From positions 1 through 32,036 of the forward strand of contig PGYD01000012.1 of assembly GCA_002839495.1 (NCBI GenBank): 32,036 nt of DNA, in the 5' to 3' direction. The position numbers and the translations under genes are program-made. The DNA is from Planctomycetes bacterium HGW-Planctomycetes-1. Lineage in GTDB: Bacteria; Planctomycetota; Phycisphaerae; Sedimentisphaerales; UBA12454. The notes under the pieces are model-generated. The model made no database searches and was not told where the DNA came from. It was given only the letters and a program-made list of their open reading frames with translations. Each line of letters starts with the position of its first letter. The stretch's first letter is position 1. Below, one piece after another: positions 239-26,807 of the stretch.

Positions 239-344
239 TCCCGCACCTTCTAAATATTCAGGAATTATTCGGGTTTTACTAAGAAGTGGAGCGGTTGTAT
301 GATATGAAAGATTTTAGGAAAAATGAAATGAAAGAAGGTGCGGG
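239..344 (+). mobile_element. Start-codon-associated inverted-repeat element, copy A
   Basis: A 106-bp element with perfect terminal inverted repeats: CCCGCACCTTC at 240-250 and GAAGGTGCGGG at 334-344. It is flanked by the direct repeat ATGAA at 234-238 and 345-349; the right copy is the tsaD start codon plus two bases. The right terminal repeat acts as Shine-Dalgarno (GAAGGTG), 4-6 nt from the ATG. The left ATG (234) opens a 22-codon ORF beginning MNPAPSKYS that stops at 300-302. Sister copies lie at 20744-20854 and 25694-25963, in the same orientation relative to their genes. No transposase is encoded, so it is MITE-like. Confidence 0.8.
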
Positions 345-15806: not shown

Positions 15807-15885
15807 ATAAAAATCCGGCGTTTTTTTATCGATTTTCAGCTCGTTTAAGCTATAATATTTGAGCGCGGGTCTTTAACAGGATAAA

Positions 15886-16022
15886 ATCCGAAATCCTAAT
15901 ACCGAAATCCGAAACAAATTCCAATCACCAAAACCTAAAAATGACCCAAACAACTGTTTTGAACATTCCGGTTTTGAATATTTGATATTATTTAGAATTT
16001 CGGATTTCGTGCTTCGCATTTT
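15886..16022. repeat. Dispersed 'CGAAATCCGAAA' palindromic repeat, copy 2
   Basis: Left part: AAATCCGAAATCC and CGAAATCCGAAAC (15886-15914). Right part: AATTTCGGATTTCGTGCTTCG (split across 15998-16018) in inverted orientation, with AACTGTTTTGAACATT between. The arms are imperfect. The element ends exactly where the homology of the following metallophosphoesterase fragment begins, so it marks the breakpoint of that truncated gene. Confidence 0.6.
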
Positions 16023-16023
16023 A

Positions 16024-16308
16024 GATATAGACCCGTTAAAATTTAAAGTGCTTCTTTCGCACAGACCCGTTTCGCTTAAAACGCTTTCACAAATGAAAAT
16101 CGACCTTGCGTTATGCGGCCACACCCACGCAGGCCAGATATTTCCGTTTAATTTCATCGTCGGCCTGTTCCATAAACCCGTATCAGGTCTGCACAAATAC
16201 GAAAACAGCCGGCTTTATGTAACGTCAGGCACGGGAACGTGGGGGCCTCGAATGAGATTAGGCTCAAGAAACGAGATAGTCTTTATACAAATCAGAAAAG
16301 ATTATTGA
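16024..16308 (+). pseudogene. C-terminal remnant of a metallophosphoesterase
   Basis: About 94 residues with the end of a calcineurin-like phosphoesterase: KVLLSHRPV, the metal-binding GHTHAGQIFP, and the C-terminal LYVTSGTGTWGPRMRLGSRNEI. The family normally starts with a GD-x-H and GNHD half of about 150-200 residues plus, in YkuE-like members, a membrane anchor; all of this is missing. Upstream lies only the palindromic repeat at 15886-16022. A start codon cannot be assigned and the fragment overlaps the 3' end of typA. It is most likely a dead gene truncated by repeat-mediated rearrangement. Confidence 0.75.
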
Positions 16309-19636: not shown

Positions 19637-20743
19637 TTATGTTTTCATCGAATCGAGCTCGATAAACGCGATGGGCAGAAAGATAAAGATAGGCAGCCAT
19701 GCCCATAATTCCGGGATAATTCTGCCGGCGATGGAAATTTCAGCGGCGAGGATTTTACTGAGGAAAGTCATAATATAGCAGGCTCCGGTGAGTCCGAAGC
19801 TGATAAAGACGGCGGATTTAAGGCCTTTTGGGTCTCTGCAGACAAGAATCGGCAGTGAAATCATCAGCATAATGAAGTTTATAAGGGGGTCTGTGATGCG
19901 GAAATTTTTCTGGGCGTAGAGCTTCGCGATGTCCTTCGGATTTTGACGGGCGAGCTTCATAAGGTCGTAAGAACTGAGCAAATCCATATAAGTTGACTTT
20001 CTCCTGACGGGAATATCTTTTGGGGCCAGGTCGCTTTTACAGGATTTTACGGTCTGGTACGGTTTGTCCGACAACTGGCGGGAGACGGCCATAAACAAAC
20101 CGTTTTTGAGAACCCAGGATTCTGTGTCGTGGTCATAATGCGCGGAATCGGCCTTAATGATTCCGGTAACGTCCCAAAGGACAGGCTGATTTTCCTGTCT
20201 TGTTCTGGTTATTATCGTCGGGTTCTGGATTACGGCCTCGCCGACATTAAACTGCGGCGAGCAGAAAAGATTGCCCTGACTGTCGGAGATGAACCACATA
20301 TCGTAAGTAAGGGTTTCGTCAATGGAGTCGTGCGAACGGACGAGCTTGTCGGCCATCGGAGGGATAAAAAATTCCTGATTGACGACGTGCAGTCCGGTAA
20401 ATGCAAGAGACAAAAACAGGATAGGAGCGATGATGCGTTTGAGACTCATACCTGATGCCATAACGGCTATAAGCTCGTTGTTTTTTGTCATTTTTCCGAG
20501 CGAAAAAACGGCGGCTACAACCGTAATCATACCCGCAAAGTCTCGGAAATATAAAAGGCTGGACCTGCCGTAAAATACAGCGATATTCGCTAATACACGA
20601 AAGGTGCCGAGCTGTGCGTTTTCGGTGAACTCATCGATATTTACAAACAAGTCAATCATAATTCGCAGTCCCATAAGGACGAGAAAGGCGATAAGATAGC
20701 CTGTGAGAAAAGTTTTCGTTACATATTTATCGAGGATTTTCAT
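19637..20743 (-). CDS. lptG: LptF/LptG-family permease (LptG-like)
   Basis: Inner-membrane subunit of the Lpt ABC exporter, which extracts lipopolysaccharide for transport to the outer membrane. At 368 residues it is close to E. coli LptG. The pattern is typical: a short basic N-terminus (MKILDKYVTKTFLTGYLIAFL), three N-terminal helices with FSLGKMTKNNELIAVMASGMSLKRI, a periplasmic jellyroll, then three C-terminal helices. The ATG at 20743 is preceded by GAAGGTGCGGG, the end of inverted-repeat copy B, which separates it from lptF. Before insertion the two genes would have been separated by only about 2 nt. LptB, LptA and LptC are not in the window. Confidence 0.93.
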   Translation of the reverse strand: MKILDKYVTKTFLTGYLIAFLVLMGLRIMIDLFVNIDEFTENAQLGTFRVLANIAVFYGRSSLLYFRDFAGMITVVAAVFSLGKMTKNNELIAVMASGMSLKRIIAPILFLSLAFTGLHVVNQEFFIPPMADKLVRSHDSIDETLTYDMWFISDSQGNLFCSPQFNVGEAVIQNPTIITRTRQENQPVLWDVTGIIKADSAHYDHDTESWVLKNGLFMAVSRQLSDKPYQTVKSCKSDLAPKDIPVRRKSTYMDLLSSYDLMKLARQNPKDIAKLYAQKNFRITDPLINFIMLMISLPILVCRDPKGLKSAVFISFGLTGACYIMTFLSKILAAEISIAGRIIPELWAWLPIFIFLPIAFIELDSMKT

Positions 20744-20854
20744 CCCGCACCTTCTTTTATTCTGTTTTTAGGAGATATATCTTTATAAAAGATACTATTC
20801 TTTCTGTTTCTTGAAAGGTATATCTGAAATATTGAATATGTAGAAGGTGCGGGA
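20744..20854 (-). mobile_element. Start-codon-associated inverted-repeat element, copy B
   Basis: A 111-bp element between lptF and lptG. Terminal repeats: GAAGGTGCGGGA at 20843-20854 and CCCGCACCTTC at 20744-20754 (plus strand). On the gene strand it is flanked by ATGAA at 20859-20855 and again at 20743-20739, the latter being the lptG start. The upstream ATG (20859) lies 2 nt after the lptF stop and opens a 38-residue ORF (MNPAPSTYS...KEGAG) whose TGA overlaps the lptG ATG. The TTCTANATATTCA end is distal to the gene, as in copies A and C. Confidence 0.8.
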
Positions 20855-20861
20855 TTCATTT

Positions 20862-24973: not shown

Positions 24974-25693
24974 TTATTTTTTTCTCATAGCTGCAAGAAC
25001 GGCGGCGAAAGTAATTGCCGCTGTTTCAATTCTCAACACCGTTTCAGTAAGTTTAACAGGCTGAGCGTTTGTTTGCTTCAGCATATTTTCTTCAGTTTCC
25101 GTCAGGCCGCCTTCGGGGCCGATGAAAGCTATAATCTCATTCAAAGCGGAGTCGAAATTTATAATGGATTCGGCATTTTGGGTCAAAGAGCCGAAGATAA
25201 TTTTTGCGTTCGGGTAGTCGGCTCGCAGTTTTTCAATTGCCTGCGACAGGCTTATCGGCGAATCAATTATCGGCAAGAATAACCGCTGACACTGTTTTGT
25301 CGATTCAAGGGCGATAGTTTCAAGGCGGCGATGCTGGAGCGATTGCTTTACTGTTCTTTCGAAAATGACAGGTACGATTCTGTCAATACCTAATTCAGTG
25401 CATTTTGCGACAAGAAGTTCAAAGCGGTCTCCCTTGGCAATGCTCGAAGCGATGATTATTCTTTGCTGGGTTGGTTTCGGATGATTTTCGATTGTTTTGA
25501 CGAGCAAGACGGCCTGAGATTTTTCGATTTTTTCAATGATTGCCTGCGCGAGTGTGCCTTTGCCGTCGAAAAGCTCGACAGAGTCGCCGATTTTGAGCCT
25601 GAGTACCTTTGTCAGATGGCGAAACTGTACATCAGTAAGGATTGTGCCGGTATCGCGGTGAATCGAATCACAAAAAAATCTTGCCGTTCTCAT
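24974..25693 (-). CDS. rsmE: 16S rRNA (uracil1498-N3)-methyltransferase RsmE
   Basis: SPOUT-fold enzyme methylating N3 of U1498 in 16S rRNA. The N-terminal PUA-like part has RFFCDSIHRDTGTILTDVQFRHLTKVLRLKIGD. The C-terminal SAM knot carries FIGPEGGLTETEE and KLTETVLRIETAAITFAAVL, the RsmE signature. Length 239 is normal. The start at 25693 is supplied with a Shine-Dalgarno by inverted-repeat copy C (GAAGGTGCGGG). Before that insertion its ATG would have overlapped the parA stop (ATGA). It is the last gene of the ribH-nusB-parA-rsmE series. Confidence 0.95.
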   Translation of the reverse strand: MRTARFFCDSIHRDTGTILTDVQFRHLTKVLRLKIGDSVELFDGKGTLAQAIIEKIEKSQAVLLVKTIENHPKPTQQRIIIASSIAKGDRFELLVAKCTELGIDRIVPVIFERTVKQSLQHRRLETIALESTKQCQRLFLPIIDSPISLSQAIEKLRADYPNAKIIFGSLTQNAESIINFDSALNEIIAFIGPEGGLTETEENMLKQTNAQPVKLTETVLRIETAAITFAAVLAAMRKK

Positions 25694-25963
25694 CCCGCAC
25701 CTTCTTTATATTCTATATTGCTTTGTAGAAAAACGGTCATTTCGACCGGAGTGAGTCCCGATAAATCGGGACGAACGAAGCGGAGAAATCTGCTTTTTTT
25801 ATAGATTTCTCGACTACGGCTGCTTCGCAGCCTTCGCTCGAAATGACAAAAAGAAAGTTTTCTACAAAGCAATTCTATATTTATTAAATTAGATGTGATG
25901 CTGTTAGACTTTAAGTTGTTTAAAAGATATGGATAATTCATTGAATATATAGAAGGTGCGGGA
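25694..25963 (-). mobile_element. Start-codon-associated inverted-repeat element, copy C (interrupted)
   Basis: Terminal repeats GAAGGTGCGGGA (25952-25963) and CCCGCACCTTC (25694-25704, plus strand). On the gene strand it is flanked by ATGAG at 25968-25964 and again at 25693-25689, the rsmE start. Copies A and B have ATGAA; the changed base is present at both ends, which is what a target-site duplication predicts. The 270 bp include a nested 155-bp MITE plus a 7-bp duplication; without them the element is 108 bp. The distal ATG overlaps the parA stop (ATGA) and opens a 92-codon ORF (MSPAPSIYS...KEGAG) whose TGA overlaps the rsmE ATG. Confidence 0.82.
25718..25872. mobile_element. Nested MITE, 155 bp, with 15-bp terminal repeats
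   Basis: Perfect terminal inverted repeats TTGCTTTGTAGAAAA (25718-25732) and TTTTCTACAAAGCAA (25858-25872), flanked by TTCTATA at 25711-25717 and 25873-25879. The interior is largely palindromic: GTCATTTCGA against TCGAAATGAC, GAGAAATCT against AGATTTCTC, plus the small hairpins TCCCGATAAATCGGGA and GCTGCTTCGCAGC. It has no coding capacity for a transposase. GTCATTTCGA...GAGAAATCT palindromes are widespread intergenic repeats in unrelated genomes (general knowledge). Confidence 0.8.
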
Positions 25964-25964
25964 C

Positions 25965-26807
25965 TCATATTCGGGATTCTAAGGCTGCTGTGTCCTGCGG
26001 GTTGTCGGGAGCGGGAGGAATTGTTCCATTATTCAGATAATCGCCAATGAGTTTATAGTCTTCTGCGCCGTGACAGCCGGGGGCGTATTCGAAAATTGTT
26101 TTTCCATAGCTGGGAGCCTCGGCAAGTTTGATATTTCTTCGTACGAAGACAGGAATGATTTGCGCTTTGCTCCAGGGACAATCGGATTCCCTTGCTCCGG
26201 TGAGAAATTTATTGATATCGTTTTTGACCTCTTCGGACAGCGATGTTCTGCTGTCGAACATACAGAGGAGAACTCCGCTAACGCAAAGGGAAGGATTTAT
26301 TCTCCTGCCGACAAGGGTTACGGTCTGGAGAAGTTTGCCCAGGCCCTGAAGCGCGAGAAAGTGCGGCTGAAGCGGAATAATTACCTCTTCGGCGGCGGCC
26401 AAGGCGTTGAGAGTTAAAAGGCCGAGCGAGGGAGGGCAATCTATAATCATATAATCGAAATTCAATTTTGATTTTAAGACGGCTTCACGGAAGATTGTTT
26501 CTCTTCCGACGACGCTGACCAGTTCGCTTTCGGCTCCGACAAGATGAATATTTGCTCCGAGCAGAAACAGATTAGGTCTTACTTCGATTAAGGCGTCGTC
26601 AAAATCCACAGAGCCGGTCAATAATTTGTATGTCCCCGATTCGACGCTGTCTGGTTCGACACCGAGGTGGATTGTAAGATGAGCCTGCGGGTCGAAATCG
26701 GCGGCGACGACTTTTGCGCCGCTTTGAGCAAGAGCGGCGGCGATGTTGACAACAGAAGTGGTTTTGCCAACGCCGCCTTTCTGGTTTAACATCGCTATTT
26801 TTCGCAT
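25965..26807 (-). CDS. ParA/Soj-family ATPase
   Basis: A 280-residue deviant-Walker ATPase. The Walker A box is MLNQKGGVGKTTSVVNIAAAL (residues 6-26), with the signature lysine of the ParA/MinD group. Walker A' DFDPQAHLTIHLG and Walker B YMIIDCPPSLGLLTLNAL follow. RRNIKLAEAPSYGKTIFEY near the C-terminus is typical of Soj-like proteins. No ParB gene is next to it; it sits between nusB (13-bp overlap) and rsmE. It may serve chromosome segregation with a ParB elsewhere, or position another cargo. Its stop overlaps the ATG of the small ORF in element copy C. Confidence 0.92.
   Translation of the reverse strand: MRKIAMLNQKGGVGKTTSVVNIAAALAQSGAKVVAADFDPQAHLTIHLGVEPDSVESGTYKLLTGSVDFDDALIEVRPNLFLLGANIHLVGAESELVSVVGRETIFREAVLKSKLNFDYMIIDCPPSLGLLTLNALAAAEEVIIPLQPHFLALQGLGKLLQTVTLVGRRINPSLCVSGVLLCMFDSRTSLSEEVKNDINKFLTGARESDCPWSKAQIIPVFVRRNIKLAEAPSYGKTIFEYAPGCHGAEDYKLIGDYLNNGTIPPAPDNPQDTAALESRI

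Follow-up and report, generated by a model that had tools for sequence, protein, structure and literature searches.

How have tsaD, lptG and rsmE, three genes of a single planctomycete contig, come to start inside the arms of the same inverted repeat? The window, that is, the whole stretch of DNA analysed here, covers 32,036 nt of contig PGYD01000012.1 of Planctomycetes bacterium HGW-Planctomycetes-1. An earlier note on this DNA had interpreted the arms as an mRNA stem that forms a translational switch common to the three genes. We find instead that a mobile element of about 107 bp ends in these hairpin arms, which are its terminal inverted repeats (TIRs). This small element is probably derived from a GIY-YIG nuclease element, inserts at start codons of the NTGAA type with a 4-bp target-site duplication (TSD), and rebuilds the start codon that it takes.

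The pairing itself is as previously described: in the window, ATCCCGCACCTTC at 238-250 is the exact reverse complement of GAAGGTGCGGGAT at 334-346, and the arms in front of tsaD thus pair without mismatch. The paired ends include the Shine-Dalgarno sequence and extend into the start codon, and the same arms precede lptG (20742-20855) and, apart from one outer mismatch, rsmE (25692-25964), the three hosts being identified by Pfam as TsaD, LptF/LptG and an RsmE-type methyltransferase. With up to two mismatches allowed, the arm is matched seven times in the window against 0.83 expected, a number reached in none of 100 shuffles. The arms can be reduced to two 12-mers, TCCCGCACCTTC on the left and GAAGGTGCGGGA on the right. 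The 1.83-Mb host genome contains 48 exact copies of GAAGGTGCGGGA and none of its reversed control; most of the matches form pairs about 95-110 bp apart, always in this same orientation, and genomes of the same family also contain the arms. An ATG of its own, overlooked in the earlier note, precedes the distal arm (ATGAATCCC...). The features at tsaD are the following:

197-225, + strand: tsaD promoter, TTGACT (197-202), 17 nt, TATCAT (220-225), from the sequence and a similar stretch in relatives
234-302, + strand: upstream open reading frame (uORF) of copy A, MNPAPSKYSGIIRVLLRSGAVV and a stop codon, beginning at the old tsaD start codon, as located from the empty site in G004
235-238, + strand: left TSD of copy A, TGAA
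239-345, + strand: copy A, a 107-bp MITE flanked by the old and the rebuilt start codon of tsaD, from its ends and the empty orthologous site L135
239-250, + strand: left TIR of copy A, TCCCGCACCTTC, the distal stem arm
334-345, + strand: right TIR of copy A, GAAGGTGCGGGA, comprising the Shine-Dalgarno sequence and the A of the rebuilt ATG, the gene-side arm
346-349, + strand: right TSD of copy A, TGAA, overlapping tsaD codons 1-2
345-1379, + strand: tsaD, host of copy A (Pfam TsaD, E=8e-97)

Comparison with genome G004, in which the tsaD site is empty, gives the structure of the insertion directly: the empty site reads …ccgccaaATGAAAACGGAT, and the filled site of the window reads …ccgtccaATGAA[107 bp]TGAAAACCGAT. 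The promoter at 197-225 lies directly upstream of the upstream ATG, and many tsaD orthologues are preceded by a similar TTGAC...TTATCAT stretch, which bears out its earlier assignment; the 5' end of the native tsaD transcript would fall almost on the ATG. From that old start codon the uORF of copy A runs for 22 codons and stops 42 nt upstream of tsaD.

The same anatomy recurs well beyond this locus. Our main set consists of 67 paired copies from six genomes, with a threshold of at least 60 aa for the host ORF, the compared genomes being largely metagenome assemblies. Typical flanks read NTGAA/TCCCGC … GCGGGA/TGAA, the slashes marking the junctions. The right junction is the host start codon in 56 of the 67 copies, across 47 host gene families that include tsaD, murG, ruvC, efp and recR, and 48 of these 56 show an exact 4-bp duplication, the variants TGAG, TGTA and TGGA being duplicated likewise. 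Only about 8 of the 59 TGAA sites that lie outside coding interiors in the window are gene starts, so that the location of 84% of the copies at starts is far above chance; selection against insertions elsewhere could add to this excess besides targeting. Empty sites are found in relatives for tsaD, lptG and rsmE and for the orthologues of many other hosts.

The two ends of the element play different parts at the captured start codon. On the left, the start copy keeps the native upstream signals and begins an ORF that extends into the element (MNPAPS…); a Shine-Dalgarno match of at least 4 nt is retained in 30 of 54 copies versus 14 of 54 in a control interval. On the right, the element supplies GAAGG as Shine-Dalgarno sequence, then TGCGGG, and finally an A that completes an ATG with the duplicated TG, and the host protein is unchanged by the insertion. 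At the L005 host, the left copy is GTG and the start after insertion is ATG. We regard this anatomy, the past mobility, the start-codon placement and the rebuilding of the start as well supported, mobility being read here from sequence as a past event. Tandem elements are seen at L328 (G009 recR) and L044 (G009:C11), where a second insertion occupies the rebuilt start codon of the first or lies directly beside another copy. The start codons of ruvC, efp, a thioredoxin-like gene and the L006 host hold different TIR families in different genomes and may be preferred sites.

The two further copies of the window are on the reverse strand:

20743-20854, - strand: copy B, 112 bp, at the start codon of lptG, TSD TGAA; site empty in G004 and others, filled in G003
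20740-20859, - strand: uORF of copy B, MNPAPSTYSIFQIYLSRNRKNSIFYKDISPKNRIKEGAG and a stop codon, whose TGA overlaps the lptG ATG (ATGA)
19637-20743, - strand: lptG, host of copy B (Pfam LptF_LptG, E=5e-40)
25693-25963, - strand: copy C, 271 bp with its nested repeat counted in, at the start codon of rsmE, TSD TGAG
25718-25872, - strand: nested repeat in copy C, 155 bp, with ends TTGCTTTGTAGAAAA/TTTTCTACAAAGCAA and a 7-bp duplication TATAGAA, from the sequence
25690-25968, - strand: uORF of copy C, 92 codons, uninterrupted by the nested repeat, its stop overlapping the rsmE start
24974-25693, - strand: rsmE-type 16S rRNA methyltransferase gene, host of copy C (Pfam Methyltrans_RNA, E=5e-39, and PUA_4)

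Copy C reaches 271 bp because a second repeat of 155 bp, missed by the earlier note, is nested inside it; this repeat is missing from the orthologous rsmE copies of G003 and G004, which are 109 bp long, and the site is empty in G009. The core of the nested repeat resembles other gcgaag...gagaaatct repeats in these genomes. Another inverted repeat of the window, at 15872-15914 and 15998-16040, has 43-nt arms that are 72% complementary.

What the element derives from is indicated by a longer form with identical ends. In G006, locus L102 holds a 297-bp element whose single ORF of 95 aa starts from the captured host ATG (MNPAPSQYSIYHVYLLKSKADNSLYIGYTNNLNRRLDEHN…) and encodes a GIY-YIG nuclease (Pfam PF01541, E=4e-17). 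A second PF01541 match (E=4e-13) also supports this domain, as do the conserved Y, YxG, R and E positions (A1), and the nearest solved structures are the UPF0213 proteins 1ZG2 and 1YWL; PHROGs and NCBIfam searches gave no match. L076 of G003 occupies the start codon of the same host (…MKTAFLGI(T/N)GSGKST) with a 106-bp form that aligns to L102 with internal deletions and matching flanks. Only 4 of 60 MITE bodies (L058, L060, L046 and L076) outscore all 100 of their own shuffles against the nuclease gene, most being too decayed to align, and Pfam returned no GIY-YIG match for eight short MITE uORFs; the derivation therefore rests on a few copies that align at the DNA level and on the site that the long and short forms share. 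Together with the 12-bp TIRs, the 4-bp duplication at 48 start codons and the occupation of 47 host gene families by paralogous bodies up to 93% alike, this pair at one start codon makes it a well-supported reading that the forms of about 107 bp are internally deleted derivatives (MITEs) of the GIY-YIG element. An intact GIY-YIG copy of this first TIR family is found only in G006, with none in the genome of the window.

The first family is narrowly distributed: its paired form occurs in 5 of 248 genomes of the class, all five in the window's own family, and it is absent from all sampled class genomes outside that family. Two other TIR families each combine forms of about 100-134 bp with GIY-YIG-coding forms. 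The second, from the same clade, has the ends TCCCGTTAGACC…GGTCTAACGGGA, sits at start codons and has the TSD TGAA. It is represented in the window's own genome by L124 (G000:C163), an intact 90-aa GIY-YIG element with TCCCGTTAGACC ends at the start codon of a gene that we take, from its sequence, to be nusA-like, the stop codon of the nuclease overlapping the host ATG. The third family (TCCCACACATAAC) belongs to Patescibacteria: the genome of L192 (G261), about 0.7 Mb in size, contains several MITEs of 107-134 bp and a 295-bp GIY-YIG element, all at ATGAA starts with the TSD TGAA, and the same ends occur in the L158 genome of Sungiibacteriota (Patescibacteria). Single GIY-YIG elements of the same layout are found in Azambacteria, Aminicenantes and others. 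A GIY-YIG element bounded by ACCCTCACACCAATGG is placed exactly where a phosphofructokinase-like gene begins (L105/L151, G009:C33), and the end of this element seems to contain the GTG that serves the gene as start codon. Related GIY-YIG elements with inverted ends lie beside tRNA genes (L150, L164, L168), rnpB (L167) and terminator-like sequences (L179, L189), which suggests that targets differ between subfamilies.

Based on these data, we consider it very likely that the element inserts at NTGAA starts, as well as at TGAG, TGTA and TGGA, and duplicates 4 bp. The GIY-YIG protein would cut the target and move both the full-length and the deleted forms. Translation of the host gene would then begin at the new ribosome site, which in some copies would involve termination and reinitiation where the two reading frames overlap at ATGA. 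The RNA stem would chiefly be a side effect of the inverted repeats, and ribosomes starting at the old AUG would open it. In its broader form, which we favour by a modest degree, the proposal is that GIY-YIG nucleases are the transposases of undescribed, phylum-spanning transposons of about 300 bp with TCCC/GGGA ends, which express the nuclease from the host gene's start, rebuild that start behind them, and so can invade essential genes almost without harm and give rise to MITEs.

To our knowledge, GIY-YIG nucleases do not act as transposases on their own, and the most serious competitor is an ordinary, unseen transposase that moves the MITEs in trans, with the GIY-YIG gene as a mere passenger. 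TIRs with a short target duplication are indeed typical of DDE transposons, and no GIY-YIG transposase is described in the open-access PMC papers searched. Against this stands the content of the elements themselves: the full-length members of three TIR families from different phyla carry a GIY-YIG ORF only, which begins at the captured start in two of the families and spans the element from end to end in the TCCCGTTAGACC family, and the full-length form encodes no DDE transposase. No longer, autonomous element with these ends is found around 20 regions with unpaired ends. We consider the passenger scenario unlikely.

A second alternative to nuclease-driven targeting concerns the uORF. In 20 of the 56 start-codon copies, against about 2.5 expected from shuffles, the uORF is open in frame to a TGA that overlaps the host ATG (ATGA). 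This holds for 13 of 48 forward copies (1.5 expected) and for 7 of 8 inverted copies (1.0 expected), which are never GIY-YIG-coding in that direction and which reflect only about four independent insertions. Such an overlap suggests translational coupling via the uORF. Coupling is plausible in general; we rate it as likely at lptG and rsmE and as uncertain at tsaD. In five pairs of orthologous copies the frame has stayed open despite 72 substitutions; these are mostly non-synonymous, so that the frame rather than the uORF peptide may be kept, and we reject conservation of the peptide. Copies might accordingly persist at start codons through a host benefit of ATGA coupling and not through targeting, as the excess of open uORFs, the five pairs and the frame of copy C, open through its nested repeat, could be taken to indicate. 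The uORF is nevertheless broken in more than half of the copies, including copy A, which are at start codons all the same, and intact GIY-YIG elements sit at start codons in other phyla too. Adaptive retention as the main cause is thus improbable, and start-codon targeting remains the reading that we follow.

The stem itself is the predicted minimum-energy fold of copies A (-36.4 kcal/mol, z -4.7) and B (-37.0 kcal/mol, z -7.9), and the folding proposed earlier does form in silico, as is expected of any transcribed pair of inverted repeats. Because most copies had been located through exact ends, which biases arm conservation, the pairing statistics use copies reached by orthology. At these filled sites the arms are intact in 7, altered in 10 and lack a detectable distal arm in 2. 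The last two, G004 recR and G010 cysG, have an exact gene-side arm and show the decay that the earlier note named as telling against a regulatory stem; the other orthologous copies keep both arms or alter either. Pairs are broken by a distal A>T at G003 lptG, which still folds (z -4.2) despite its one mismatch, by a gene-side G>A at G003 tsaD, whose fold is weakly better than shuffles (z -1.35), and at three pairs of G010 tsaD. Altered positions mostly break the pair; three give G-U, and two, both inner pairs of G009 recR, are compensated. Among the exact-end copies, biased as they are, the outer T-A pair is C-G in 4 and changed on one side only in 3 others. The compensatory changes for which the note had called are thus present in these few pairs and do not extend to the stem in general. 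Among orthologues of tsaD, lptG and rsmE, 5 of 120 arm positions differ versus about 14% in the loop and body, so that some constraint is possible, for which a switch is not required.

A domesticated switch, in which the stem hides the ribosome site of the three genes and opens on a signal, could draw on the predicted fold, the less variable arms and the few compensated pairs, and we judge it very improbable: TIRs and target duplications explain both the pairing and its sharing between genes, pairs are lost at tsaD and elsewhere, the distal arm belongs to a uORF begun at the native start codon, and Rfam has no match in the window. No function is common to the 47 host gene families, and for this reason we reject a shared regulon; the suggestion that tRNA modification, LPS export and rRNA methylation are switched together is not supported.

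Start-codon insertion by a GIY-YIG element would matter in several ways. Transposons in dense bacterial genomes must spare genes, and docking at start codons appears to solve this problem: the element takes the native start and returns a new one to the gene, even in tsaD, murG, ruvC, efp and recR. Should the GIY-YIG protein be what moves the element, it would represent a new class of transposition enzyme, and a role would be at hand for the many small multi-copy GIY-YIG proteins of Planctomycetota, Patescibacteria and other groups. For annotation, uORFs such as MNPAPS… flag insertions and place the true old start codon upstream.

We know of no transposon class that combines these features. Within open-access PMC, as distinct from preprints and subscription papers, we found neither a MITE that targets start codons nor a TIR element with GIY-YIG as its only gene, and look-ups in a GIY-YIG phylogenomic study (PMC1564403) and in a MITE review (PMC10969869) gave no such element. 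To the extent that the enzyme assignment and this partial literature coverage hold, the element type would be categorically new. Several known systems come close to it in part. Penelope-like retroelements employ a GIY-YIG endonuclease in transposition, but they are eukaryotic and have a reverse transcriptase, and none is encoded here. UPF0213/YhbQ-type proteins (PDB 1ZG2, 1YWL) consist of the same minimal GIY-YIG domain, whereas the present ORF lies between inverted repeats and is placed at start codons captured from host genes. Stand-alone GIY-YIG homing endonucleases, such as the phage Seg proteins, are small mobile genes without an intron. The gene described here is likewise small, mobile and intronless, but in place of one long, fixed, allelic site it has inverted repeats, a TSD and a short degenerate target, and it occupies ectopic NTGAA start codons of dozens of genes that are unrelated to each other. 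Rickettsia palindromic elements are short repeats compatible with host reading frames (PMC10969869); their insertions lie within ORFs and extend the host protein by a peptide, whereas the host protein is unchanged here. With bacterial MITEs our elements share a length of about 100 bp, TIRs, a target duplication, many copies and an origin by internal deletion from a coding parent. In contrast to these MITEs, the parent encodes a GIY-YIG protein and no known transposase, and almost every copy lies at a start codon, where it rebuilds both ribosome site and ATG.
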